A stretch of DNA of 64,000 nucleotides from Chromatiales bacterium (lineage in GTDB: Bacteria; Pseudomonadota; Gammaproteobacteria; Steroidobacterales; GCA-2729495), in contig JAFIFS010000027.1 of the NCBI GenBank assembly GCA_020831895.1, positions 1-64,000 of the forward strand, read 5' to 3'. A program made the translations under genes and the position numbers. Of the stretch, positions 59,458 to 63,577 are shown piece by piece. The stretch's first letter is position 1, and each line of letters starts with the position of its first letter. The notes beneath the pieces were generated by a model that had not been told where the DNA came from, did no database searches, and saw only the letters and a list, made by a program, of their open reading frames with translations.

Positions 59458-60102
59458 ATGAGTCATTTTCCCGCCGCCGCATTCCTGACCAGCGCCCATC
59501 GCCCGGAGCAGTTCCTGCCCGATATCGGCGCCGAGGTCGCGTTTGCCGGGCGATCGAATGCCGGCAAGTCGAGCGCGATCAACGCTGCCCTGAACCGCCG
59601 TGACCTGGCCCGGACCAGCAAGACGCCGGGCCGGACCCAGCTGGTGAACTTCTTCACGCTCGGCGGCGAGCAGCGGCTGGTCGACCTGCCCGGCTACGGG
59701 TATGCCCGCGTCTCGCGCACGCTGCAGGCCCACTGGCAGACACTGATCGAGGCTTACCTGCGGCGGTCTGCGCTGGCAGGTCTGGTACTGGTGGTCGACA
59801 GCCGTCGCGGTCTGGGTGACGGCGACCGGACGCTGCTCGACTGGTGCTCGGCGGCTGCCTGCCCGGTCCATGTGCTGCTGACCAAGGCAGACAAGCTGTC
59901 GCGCAACAGCGCGGCGAGCGCCCTGGCTGCGGCGCGGCGTGAACTCGGCGACCGGGCTACCGCCCAGCTCTTTTCGGCACCGAGCCGCCAGGGTGTCGAG
60001 CCGCTGCGTGACCAGATGCAGGCGCTGCTGTCCGCCCACCTGGGCCGTGAACCCGGAGACGTTCCGGGGGACTGTAATCGCACGGAGCCCTCGGTCCTTT
60101 GA
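59458..60102 (+). CDS. engB: ribosome biogenesis GTPase EngB (YsxC/YihA)
   Basis: 214 residues. Essential GTPase for ribosome large-subunit assembly. G1 is [12 protein letters not shown]2 region [13 protein letters not shown]3 [11 protein letters not shown]4 TKADKL and the G5 region SAPSRQG. ATG 59458 has no strong upstream Shine-Dalgarno. Convergent with polA across the sRNA region. Confidence 0.96.
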
Positions 60103-60105
60103 AGT

Positions 60106-60120
60106 TGTCATGCCATGACA
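60106..60120. repeat. palindrome after engB
   Basis: TGTCATG-C-CATGACA is a perfect 7-base inverted repeat immediately after the engB stop. A related dyad, ATGACA-AGTAC-TGTCAT, lies at 60217-60233, and the DNA between them is AT-rich compared with the rest of the window. They could be a weak terminator, a protein-binding site or both. Confidence 0.6.
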
Positions 60121-60216: not shown

Positions 60217-60233
60217 ATGACAAGTACTGTCAT
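60217..60233. repeat. second TGTCAT-type dyad
   Basis: ATGACA-AGTAC-TGTCAT, the same six-base arms as the palindrome at 60106, downstream of the sRNA units on the minus strand. Nothing else is seen between 60121 and 60216. Confidence 0.55.
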
Positions 60234-60257
60234 CAAGGGCGGCTTACGGGGCTGGAT

Positions 60258-60378
60258 ATAAAGTGGCCCCGGGCGCGGAGTACAGGGGGCGCCCGGGGCC
60301 AAGGGCAACCGGCTTGGGGTGACCGGTTGGAGTTCCCGCTCAGGGAGATCAGCGGGTGAGCGCCGGGGGAGGACGCTC
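60258..60378 (-). ncRNA. predicted sRNA 1 at the Spot 42/ErsA locus (engB-proximal copy)
   Basis: On the minus strand the RNA would start at about 60378 with GAGCG and fold into four stems. Hairpin 1 is GAGCG / CGCTC with loop TCCTCCCCCGG. Hairpin 2 is CCCGCT / AGCGGG with loop GATCTCCCTG. Hairpin 3 is AACCGG / CCGGTT with loop TCACCCCAAG. The last is the GC-rich stem GGCCCCGGGCGC / GCGCCCGGGGCC followed by ACTTTATA. Every loop is C-rich and could pair with ribosome-binding sites. Here the run after the stem has only three Ts, so termination may be weaker. The position (downstream of polA, same strand, convergent with engB) is that of Spot 42 and ErsA. Confidence 0.7.
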
Positions 60379-60384
60379 AAAAGT

Positions 60385-60412
60385 TTAGACTGGGTCTAAG
60401 CGGAAGAGTTCC
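60385..60412 (-). promoter_or_regulatory. sigma-E-like promoter of sRNA 1
   Basis: On the minus strand GGAACTC (60412-60406) and TCTAA (60389-60385) are separated by 16 bases. The RpoE/AlgU consensus is GAACTT-N16-TCTGA. It places the transcript start at the first base of the first sRNA hairpin. Confidence 0.65.
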
Positions 60413-60443
60413 CGACGTTCTCACCGGAAAGTTCGCGGTCCGG

Positions 60444-60561
60444 AAAAAGTGGCCCCGGGCGCGGAGTACAGGGGGCGCCCGGGGCCGATGCAACCGGTTG
60501 GGGTGACCGGCTGTAGTTCCCGCCAGGGAGATCAGCGGGTGAGCGCCGGGGGAGGACGCTC
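60444..60561 (-). ncRNA. predicted sRNA 2 at the Spot 42/ErsA locus (polA-proximal copy)
   Basis: The same architecture as sRNA 1, starting at about 60561. It has hairpin loops with TCCTCCCCCGG, TGATCTCCCTG and TCACCCCAA, and a final stem GGCCCCGGGCGC / GCGCCCGGGGCC followed by ACTTTTTCC, a good intrinsic terminator. Hairpin 3 is AGCCGG / CCGGTT, which still pairs by a wobble despite the base changes. Conservation of structure and loop motifs between copies argues for a functional RNA rather than neutral repeats. Confidence 0.75.
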
Positions 60562-60567
60562 GCCATC

Positions 60568-60595
60568 TTAGACTGGGTCTAAAGGAGAGAGTTCC
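60568..60595 (-). promoter_or_regulatory. sigma-E-like promoter of sRNA 2
   Basis: GGAACTC (60595-60589) and TCTAA (60572-60568) on the minus strand, again exactly 16 bases apart, and again 7 bases before the GAGCG start. The promoter geometry is identical in the two copies. Confidence 0.68.
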
Positions 60596-60666
60596 CGGCG
60601 CGGGTGTCGGCTGCTGATGCCGGCCGCCACGTCCCGTTTACCACCTCGCGGCTGCCCTGCGCGCCC

Positions 60667-63366
60667 CTAGTGCGCCTCGTCCCAGTTCCGGCCGACATCA
60701 GCGTGGACGCGCAGCGGCACGCTGAGCCCTCCAGCCGCCGACATCCGCTCGACCAGCCCGCTGCGGACCTCGTCCATCGCCTCGGCGCGGACCTCGACGA
60801 CGAGTTCGTCATGCACCTGCATGATCAGCCGGGCCGGCAGCCGCTCGTCAACCAGCCAGTGGTGCACATCCAGCATCGCCCGCTTGATGATGTCGGCGGC
60901 GCTGCCCTGCATGGGTGCGTTGATCGCGCTGCGCTCGGCGTACTGTCGCCGCTGCGCCTGGCGTGCATTGATCTCCGGGAGATACAGGCGTCGTCCAGAT
61001 ACCGTTTCCACCCAGCCCTGGGCTCGCGCCTGCTCGCGGGTGCGCTCCATGTAATCGCGGACCCCGGGGTAGCGCTCGAAGTAGCGATCAACATACTGCT
61101 GGGCCTCTCCGCGCCCGATGCCGAGCTGTCGCGACAGCCCGAACGCCGACATGCCGTAGATCAGCCCGAAGTTGATCGCCTTGGCCGAGCGTCGCTGCTC
61201 TGCGCTCACCTCGTCCAGGCTTACCCCGAACACCTCGGCTGCGGTGGCCTGGTGGATGTCCCGGTCATCGGCGAAGGCCGCCAGCAGCCCTTCGTCCCCG
61301 GACAGGTGCGCCATGATGCGCAATTCAATCTGCGAGTAGTCCGCCGCGATCAGCCTGAAGCCCTCTGGCGCGATGAAGGCCTGCCGGATACGCCGGCCGG
61401 CGGCGTTGCGGATCGGTATGTTCTGCAGGTTCGGGTCCGATGATGACAGCCGTCCCGTCGCGGCCACGGCCTGGTGGTACGAGGTGTGGATGCGCCCGCT
61501 GCGCGCGTTGACCAGCGTCGGCAGCTTGTCGGTATAGGTGGACTTGAGCTTGCTCAGGCCGCGATGCTCAAGGATCATGCGCGGAAGCTCGTACTCCGCG
61601 GCCAGCTCCTCGAGCACGTCCTCGGCAGTCGAGGGCTGCCCCTTCGGCGTCTTGCGCAGAACCGGCAGGCCCAGCTGTCCGAACAGGATCTCGGTCAGCT
61701 GGCGCGGTGACCCGAGGTTGAACGGCTGCCCCGCCAGGTCGTGCGCCTTGAGTTCCAGCGCAGCCATCTGCTTCGCGAACTCGCCGCTCATCTGCCTGAG
61801 CTGGCGCACGTCGACCAGCACGCCAGCAGCCTCCATTGCCTGCAGAACCCTGGACAGCGGCTGCTCGACCTCCCGGTAAAGCGTCGCCAGCCTGGCTTCT
61901 TCCTGCAGTGCAGGCCACAGTGTTTGATGGACACGCAGCGTGATGTCCGCGTCCTCCGCGGCGTAGGGCCCGGCCTGCTCCAGCGCCACCTGGTCGAAGC
62001 CGATCTGGCGCGCGCCCTTGCCCGCGATTTCCTCGTAGCTCGTCGTCGTCAGCCCGAGGTAGTGGCGGGCCACTGAATCCAGATCGTGCCGGGTGGCCGT
62101 GCTGTTCAGCACATAGGATTCCAGCATCGTGTCATGACGCATGCCCCTGAGCCGTATGCCGTGGTTCGAAAGAACGTGCGCGTCATACTTGAGATGGTGA
62201 CCGACCTTGGCCGAGCTGCCTTCGAGCCACGGCCGCATGCGCTCCAGCACCTCGTCCAGTGGCAGCTGTTCCGGACACCCCGGATAGGCGTGGCCCAGCG
62301 GGATATAGGCGGCCTCGCCGGGCTCTAGCGCAAGCGAGATGCCGACGATGCGTGCCTCCATGTAGTCCAGGCTCGTCGTCTCGGTGTCGAGCGCGACCAG
62401 CTCGGCCTGCGCGATGCGCGCGAGCCAGGCCTCGAGTGCGTCCCGGTCGAGCACGACCGAGTAGTTACGCTCATGCACCGCGGCCGGTGCCGGCTGGGTC
62501 GCACTGGACGTATTTTCCGCCAGGCTACGCAGCAGGGAGCGAAGCTCCAGCGTCTCGTAGAGCGAGCGCAGCACCTCGGCATCGGGCTCGCCGGCCAGCA
62601 GGTCGGCGGGGCCACAGTCCAGCGGGACATCGAGGCGGATGGTCGCAAGCTCGCGCGAGAGCCGCAGCTGGTCGAGGTGCGCGCGCAGGCTCTCGCCCAC
62701 CTTGCCGGGGATCTCCTGCGCGTGCTCGATGATGTGGTCCAGTGTCCCGTATTCGCCGAGCCACTTCGCTGCGGTCTTGGGCCCAACTTTCGGCACGCCC
62801 GGGATGTTGTCGGAACTGTCGCCGACCAGTGCGAGAAAGTCGATCATCTGGCCTGGCGTGACGCCGAATTTCCCGATGACACCCTGCACGTCGAGCCGCC
62901 GGTCGGTCATCGTATCGACCAGCGTGACGTGCTCGCCGACCAGCTGGGCCATGTCCTTGTCGCCCGTGGACACCAGCGTGCGAAGCCCCTGGTCGGTCGC
63001 CTGGCGCGCGAGCGTCCCGATCACGTCGTCGGCCTCGACCCCGGACACCCGGAGCAGCGGCAGCCCCTGGGCTCGGACGATTTCCGCCAGGGGCTCGATC
63101 TGGCTGCGCAGGGCGTCGGGCATGGGCGGCCGGTGGGCCTTGTACTGGTCGAAGAGCTCGTCCCGGAACGTCCGGCCCGGCGCGTCCATGACGACCGCAA
63201 CATGATCGGGCTGCTGCTCGCGCATCAGCTTCTGCAGCATGTTCAGCACCCCGAGCACTGCACCCGTGTGCTGACCCTGGCTGCTCGTCAGCTCAGGCAG
63301 CGCGTGAAAGGCGCGATAGAGGTACGAGGAGCCGTCTACGAGCAGAAGCAGCGGGCGCTCGCTCAT
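60667..63366 (-). CDS. polA: DNA polymerase I
   Basis: About 899 residues, full length. The 5' nuclease domain (LLLVDGSSYLYRAFHALP, VVSTGDKDMAQL) is followed by a 3'-5' exonuclease with the DxE motif intact (VALDTETTSLDYMEARIVG). The polymerase domain has motif A DYSQIELRIMAHLSGD, motif B RRSAKAINFGLIYGMSAFGL and motif C QVHDELVVEV. It works in Okazaki fragment processing and repair. ATG 63366 has GGAG just upstream; in-frame codons further upstream overlap lptM. Confidence 0.97.
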   Translation of the reverse strand: MSERPLLLLVDGSSYLYRAFHALPELTSSQGQHTGAVLGVLNMLQKLMREQQPDHVAVVMDAPGRTFRDELFDQYKAHRPPMPDALRSQIEPLAEIVRAQGLPLLRVSGVEADDVIGTLARQATDQGLRTLVSTGDKDMAQLVGEHVTLVDTMTDRRLDVQGVIGKFGVTPGQMIDFLALVGDSSDNIPGVPKVGPKTAAKWLGEYGTLDHIIEHAQEIPGKVGESLRAHLDQLRLSRELATIRLDVPLDCGPADLLAGEPDAEVLRSLYETLELRSLLRSLAENTSSATQPAPAAVHERNYSVVLDRDALEAWLARIAQAELVALDTETTSLDYMEARIVGISLALEPGEAAYIPLGHAYPGCPEQLPLDEVLERMRPWLEGSSAKVGHHLKYDAHVLSNHGIRLRGMRHDTMLESYVLNSTATRHDLDSVARHYLGLTTTSYEEIAGKGARQIGFDQVALEQAGPYAAEDADITLRVHQTLWPALQEEARLATLYREVEQPLSRVLQAMEAAGVLVDVRQLRQMSGEFAKQMAALELKAHDLAGQPFNLGSPRQLTEILFGQLGLPVLRKTPKGQPSTAEDVLEELAAEYELPRMILEHRGLSKLKSTYTDKLPTLVNARSGRIHTSYHQAVAATGRLSSSDPNLQNIPIRNAAGRRIRQAFIAPEGFRLIAADYSQIELRIMAHLSGDEGLLAAFADDRDIHQATAAEVFGVSLDEVSAEQRRSAKAINFGLIYGMSAFGLSRQLGIGRGEAQQYVDRYFERYPGVRDYMERTREQARAQGWVETVSGRRLYLPEINARQAQRRQYAERSAINAPMQGSAADIIKRAMLDVHHWLVDERLPARLIMQVHDELVVEVRAEAMDEVRSGLVERMSAAGGLSVPLRVHADVGRNWDEAH

Positions 63367-63385
63367 CTCCGGGAAGCGCTGCCGT

Positions 63386-63577
63386 TCATCCGCGTGGCCT
63401 CTCTTCATCCTGATCCGGCTCGTCTTCAGGTGCAGCGTCTTCGCCCGCCGGCCATGCCGTAATGTCCGGTTCCGGCTCCTCGCCGGGCAGGAACAGGTCA
63501 CCCTTCATGCCGCAGCCGGTGAGCACCAGCATCGCCGCGCACAGGGCCAGCGCAGCCCCCTGGCGCTCAGGCCGCAC
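63386..63577 (-). CDS. lptM: LPS translocon maturation chaperone LptM-like lipoprotein (YifL)
   Basis: About 63 residues. A lipoprotein signal (ALALCAAMLVLTGCG) ends at the lipidated Cys, followed by the conserved G(M/L)KGxLxxPG pattern (CGMKGDLFLPG) of LptM. The acidic tail is disordered. GTG 63577 is proposed (AGGGGG upstream; GTG 63586 also possible). It overlaps the argH end by 11 bases and precedes polA by ~20 bases. Confidence 0.85.
   Translation of the reverse strand: MRPERQGAALALCAAMLVLTGCGMKGDLFLPGEEPEPDITAWPAGEDAAPEDEPDQDEERPRG

Follow-up and report, generated by a model that had tools for sequence, protein, structure and literature searches.

What does the gap between engB and polA encode in this Chromatiales bacterium? 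The authors of a study on the sRNA sX13 asked whether the polA locus elsewhere encodes sRNAs acting alike (PMC3771888). In the window, that is, the whole stretch of 64,000 nucleotides analysed here, the polA ORF lies on the minus strand (60667..63501, from the ORF list) and engB on the plus strand (59460..60102, a reading frame within a listed ORF). Both served as tblastn queries, and both adjoin the element in relatives too. It was found that two tandem copies of a predicted sRNA gene, with a unit of about 120 nt, are placed in this gap, both on the polA strand (minus), with polA as the upstream and engB as the convergent neighbour. The polA-proximal copy A runs from a predicted start at GAGCG (about 60561) to a T-tract (60444..60561), and copy B from GAGCG (about 60378) to a T-rich tail (60256..60378); these limits were drawn from sequence and fold. 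Thus, the duplicated unit reported on the polA strand by a first-pass annotation is present, with both copies in their place. The two predicted transcripts are 90.5% identical (89% for the DNA including the promoter), and the folds of both are far more stable than those of shuffled sequence (z -5.9 and -8.0).

Each copy has three hairpins with C-rich loops, followed by a strong GC-rich terminator. In copy A, hairpin 1 (60541..60561, minus strand like all the following features; sequence and fold) has the loop TCCTCCCCCG, hairpin 2 (60519..60539; fold and covariation) is the most conserved one and bears CTCCCT in its loop, and hairpin 3 (60491..60513; fold and covariation) has the loop CACCCCAA. 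The intrinsic terminator (60444..60486; sequence and fold) has the loop CCCCTGTACTC, which is kept in most genera of the family. In copy B, the same loops are found in hairpin 1 (60358..60378; fold), hairpin 2 (60335..60356; fold and covariation), and hairpin 3 (60306..60329; fold and covariation), ahead of the terminator (60256..60300; sequence and fold). The loops and GC terminators had been described in the first-pass annotation, and so had a T-tract, which is TTTTT in copy A but is interrupted in copy B (TTTATAT). It had also been stated that a stem of copy B is kept by compensating bases. The pairing is indeed kept, but in the third stem the copies differ by an indel and by G-U/A-U and U-A/U-G exchanges, and thus the pairing is maintained by wobble. 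True compensatory changes of the stems occur among relatives, and the hairpin 1 loop is not C-rich in many of them.

A sigma-E-type promoter, GGAACTC-N16-TCTAA, precedes copy A (60568..60595) and copy B (60385..60412), both on the minus strand and recognized by sequence; for copy A the same element is seen in relatives and class-wide. The shorter form GAACTC-N16-TCTAA, which had been noted ahead of each copy, begins at 60594 and 60411. The distance from the promoter to hairpin 1 is equal in both copies as claimed, although TCTAA and hairpin 1 are separated by six bases and not by seven. Is such a promoter likely to occur by chance? A strict pattern, GGAACTY-N16/17-TCTRA, was counted over the 2.82-Mb genome. 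It occurs three times: two occurrences are the promoters of the copies and the third lies inside the reading frame of an ABC transporter ATPase, while the reversed control pattern occurs twice. No further copy of the sRNA unit was found elsewhere in the 2.82 Mb searched. Since two of the only three strict matches in 2.8 Mb stand at the copies and the unit is unique to this place, the arrangement is not due to chance. A sigma-70 promoter scan upstream of copy A and copy B found no site. The genome encodes RpoE (299 bits), and GAACTT-N16-TCTCA was found upstream of its own rpoE gene. A 15-bp dyad, TTAGAC-CCA-GTCTAA, covers the -10 box at 60568-60582 (copy A) and 60385-60399 (copy B). Its form is kept in the sister genus g5 (L003, L005, L006, L007) and is absent from other genera; it is possibly a candidate operator for a second regulator.

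By DNA similarity, 22 of 60 genomes (the window's own counted), all of one taxonomic family, have the element just downstream of polA. Every family relative has one copy per locus and the window genome alone has two; the genome G005 has a weak second match elsewhere. Copy A and copy B are far more alike than either is to any relative, and the duplication therefore probably belongs to the branch of the window genome itself. In nearly all of the family relatives, the promoter has GAACT(T/C) separated by 16 bases from a TC-type -10, whereas the spacer sequence varies. The homologues in genus g9 (L009, L016, L018, L019, L020) are without a sigma-E promoter and have a sigma-70-like -10 instead, which suggests a switch of control.

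A location-blind pattern made from hairpin 2 and hairpin 3 was scanned over the genomes of 84,980 species. It hit 26 loci, each of them on the polA strand and next to polA, engB, or both: 23 have a polA match (in L033 it ends 1.8 kb from the pattern locus) and three were placed by engB only. Among these loci are those of Thioalkalivibrio sp. XN8 (L033), a culturable relative with a single copy, of a Natronospirales bacterium, and of a Nevskia MAG. The position and the strand are conserved among relatives, as are the C-rich loops, in agreement with the earlier proposal of an sRNA family with C-rich loops. A second C-rich-loop hairpin followed by a terminator was seen in the window genome, at about 1640-1790 of L087 (G000:C106, near 18200), upstream of a response-regulator/histidine-kinase gene pair. 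It scores 38.5 bits with the anti-hemB model and 28 bits with the model R1 described below, and is possibly a further candidate sRNA.

Is the structure itself under selection? Covariation was first scored among close homologues, using 22 sequences, an anchored alignment, and a stated structure. Both sides change with the pairing kept in 13 of 24 pairs, and the covariation score is 0.339, against 0.170 for shuffled and less than 0.09 for slid versions. A covariance model named R1 was built from 22 sequences; it takes in hairpin 2, hairpin 3, and the terminator and leaves out the promoter. Among 109 matches, all 24 pairs change on both sides with the pairing kept (score 0.585 versus 0.191 shuffled), figures that call for caution as this alignment was fitted to the structure of the model. 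The stems vary while the loops are constant, with CUCCC in 98 and CCCC in 107 of the 109 matches; these counts are partly a result of selection, since R1 favours such loops. The search of relatives with a covariance model that had been proposed earlier thus revealed strong covariation in the homologues.

R1 matches 34 of 40 genomes of the family, downstream of polA, and 100 of 229 sampled gammaproteobacterial genomes, mostly once per genome. An R1 match lies within 1.5 kb of polA or engB in 79 of 97 checked genomes, in 76 of them in the expected orientation. Some unlinked matches adjoin cytochrome c4 and ResB genes; they may represent a rearranged polA-engB neighbourhood, because these two genes are neighbours of engB in other loci. 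GAACT-N16-18-TCNNA stands ahead of 51 of the 84 matches linked to polA or engB (mean 0.21 in shuffled sequence) and ahead of 16 of the 23 unlinked ones (0.06 in shuffles), and the counts peak sharply at a single spacing. Since the promoter is not part of R1 and yet precedes its matches, this is the strongest evidence for true matches and for an ancestral sigma-E-type promoter. The window copies show all the features of the family, with R1 scores of 77.1 bits for copy A and 91.9 bits for copy B, a polA-proximal position, and a sigma-E-type promoter; their R1 match arises by construction, because both are among the 22 rows of the model, while position and promoter are independent of it. The sigma-E-type promoter proposed by the first-pass annotation is thus backed by conservation in relatives, by its class-wide occurrence, and by its rarity in the genome.

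Tandem arrays recur in the class, and the inspected copies mostly have one sigma-E-like promoter each. Closely spaced R1 pairs were found beside engB in two genomes (G164 and G206) and at loci without a polA or engB match in three (G079, G226, and G208). G228 has four tandem copies beside polA (L181, 2552-3284) with a spacing of about 210 bp, most of them with a clear sigma-E-type promoter. In G079 (L190) and G226 (L202), the pair is an extra one, apart from the engB-linked copy of each genome, and the L190 pair is near rlmL-like and pseudouridine-synthase-like genes. In two other genomes (G126 and G256; L101 and L173), a family member with its promoter sits between rimO and hslV, away from polA.

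Does the element belong to a known RNA family? At the gathering threshold, no Rfam match was found in the window element, nor in any of nine R1 loci taken from the family and class samples and not picked for a known Rfam family. Among the Rfam models, anti-hemB (Burkholderia RNA 7, RF02837) comes closest, and it had not been considered in the first-pass annotation. The window copies score 31.3 and 24.0 bits with it (E 2.6e-5 and 0.003), below the gathering score of 49.5. Anti-hemB has the same hairpin 2 as the window family (CCCGC..CCUCCCUGAGCGGG), a variable middle hairpin, and a terminator. Five loci above the anti-hemB cut-off are all R1 matches, three of them adjoining polA or engB. Anti-hemB was named from Burkholderia and is not known to have an assigned function. 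It has been detected as a 105-nt transcript, ncS04 (PMC5688073).

In architecture, the closest match is sX13 (RF02232), which was likewise missing from the first-pass annotation. This RNA of about 115 nt is encoded downstream of polA and has three stable stem-loops with C-rich loops (PMC3771888). The window copies share this position and plan, with a C-rich loop at the tip of each of three stem-loops, but score 16.3 and 15.8 bits with RF02232 (threshold 50). At the sX13 locus (L051), a sigma-E promoter is not clear, and R1 gives 21.6 bits at the right place. ErsA (Pseudomon-1, RF01719) is, like the window copies between polA and engB, encoded just downstream of polA on the polA strand. The ErsA gene at L230 (121 bits) has GAACTT and then TCATA at the spacing of the family, and the C-rich terminator loop is also shared. 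ErsA depends on AlgU, the RpoE orthologue (PMC7565897, PMC8395346). In contrast, ErsA has a long, less structured 5′ part, and R1 gives only 20 bits, as the single R1 match in the L230 locus. With RF01719, copy A scores 18.3 bits, below the threshold of 50, and copy B is unlisted; in the order of G092, the RF01719 search covered a single genome. The best R1 match within both the L230 and the L051 locus is the known RNA itself, weak and downstream of polA in each.

Spot 42 (RF00021) lies in the same polA-yihA/engB gap on the same strand, and the likeness is one of place only. The locus of ErsA and Spot 42, to which the first-pass annotation had assigned the element, is thus shared in place and strand, but homology to Spot 42 in sequence or structure is not detectable: it was rejected with no covariance match up to E 5 and with 11 bits for R1 on the E. 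coli locus. Spot 42 was reportedly found by Polayes et al. in 1988 (cited in PMC3771888) to be repressed by cAMP-CRP, as opposed to the sigma-E drive expected for the window family. Matches to mir-4523 were also rejected, as chance GC hairpins on the other strand.

In summary of these comparisons, the window element is outside every catalogued family by test, yet has a similar plan and promoter, and its locus and plan appear to be shared by ErsA, sX13, and the anti-hemB RNA of Burkholderia, outliers that have been catalogued separately. I lean slightly towards one ancient RpoE-dependent sRNA lineage that occupies the polA-engB gap in much of the class and of which ErsA, sX13, and anti-hemB would be diverged branches. 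For the Gammaproteobacteria, it would be the ancestral non-coding part of the response to envelope stress, and would have expanded in tandem several times, once in the window.

What would the two RNAs do? With an RpoE-type promoter and a terminator of its own, each copy would be a separate transcription unit just downstream of polA, and its RNA would be a chain of GC-rich hairpins that expose the C-rich loops UCCUCCCCC, UCUCCCUG, CACCCCAA, and CCCCUGUACUC. Upon envelope stress, RpoE would switch on copy A and copy B, the loops would pair with G-rich, Shine-Dalgarno-like sequence near start codons, and ribosome entry would be blocked; the duplication would raise the sRNA dose. I consider it quite probable that the copies are such tandem RpoE-driven, trans-acting repressors of mRNAs, with transcription, RpoE induction, and dose effect predicted, and target pairing predicted by analogy with sX13. 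Comparison among genomes shows the gene structure, the promoter type, selection on the structure, and the conservation of loops and position. The interpretation in the first-pass annotation is accordingly borne out in part, namely for the sRNA family, the sigma-E-type promoter, the position and strand, the C-rich loops, and the ErsA/Spot 42 locus.

The hairpins lie downstream of polA on the same strand and end in U-tracts, and they might be nothing but strong polA terminators duplicated by chance, with no regulatory RNA. This is very unlikely, since a separate conserved sigma-E-type promoter precedes each copy, three extra hairpins with conserved loops and covarying stems stand ahead of the terminator, and homologues away from polA also have the promoter (16/23). 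A mobile repeat of the REP or MITE type would explain a tandem duplication with inverted repeats. The first-pass annotation had itself raised a scattered simple repeat, but only two copies and no simple dispersed repeat were found in the genome, and relatives have the element at a single orthologous place; the chance of such an origin is negligible.

A 61-codon ORF with a TTG start overlaps copy B, and SpfP is annotated inside spf, so that the transcripts might encode a small protein or have a dual function, as in the annotation of Spot 42. The copies differ by one-base indels that shift the frame while the stems are kept, and the spacer lengths differ among relatives, which makes this highly improbable. 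Less remote, though still unlikely, is that the loops mainly titrate a protein or another RNA as a sponge rather than pair with mRNA starts. Several similar C-rich loops per RNA and tandem copies (up to four, in G228) fit a dose-dependent decoy. On the other hand, a C-loop-binding protein is suggested by no data in this analysis, and sX13, which has been studied best among the RNAs of similar plan, acts as a repressor of mRNAs that have G-rich motifs close to the start, both the loop and the target motifs being needed (PMC3771888).

Repression by loop pairing thus stays the preferred reading. The hfq start region of the window genome reads CTGGGAGTCGATG, complementary to the CUCCC loop; this match is weak, because any C-rich loop matches ordinary Shine-Dalgarno sequences, and the pairing comparison was limited to the hfq and rpoE leaders without a whole-genome background and is uninformative. 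Would Hfq be involved, as had been suggested? It is encoded in the window genome, and the predicted U-tails, being short or interrupted, do not argue for it. Among the comparators, sX13 acts without Hfq (PMC3771888), while ErsA uses Hfq on algC (PMC8395346) and acts without it on amrZ (PMC5819304).

The polA-locus family is widespread in the Gammaproteobacteria and mostly falls below every Rfam threshold. The first half of the question asked by the sX13 authors is thus answered for a large part of the class: the locus has a structured sRNA gene with C-rich loops and usually a sigma-E promoter. The well-studied organisms with ErsA or sX13 can serve as comparators for the family, what sigma-E does in uncultured lineages can be tested, and the tandem arrays, which recur and in which most copies have a promoter of their own, are natural dose variants.

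Finally, two dyads (TGTCATGCCATGACA at 60106-60120 and ATGACAAGTACTGTCAT at 60217-60233) flank an AT-rich stretch between engB and copy B in the window. Further AATTACAG/CTGTAATT arms are found near them, and these repeats are perhaps operators or a small inserted element.
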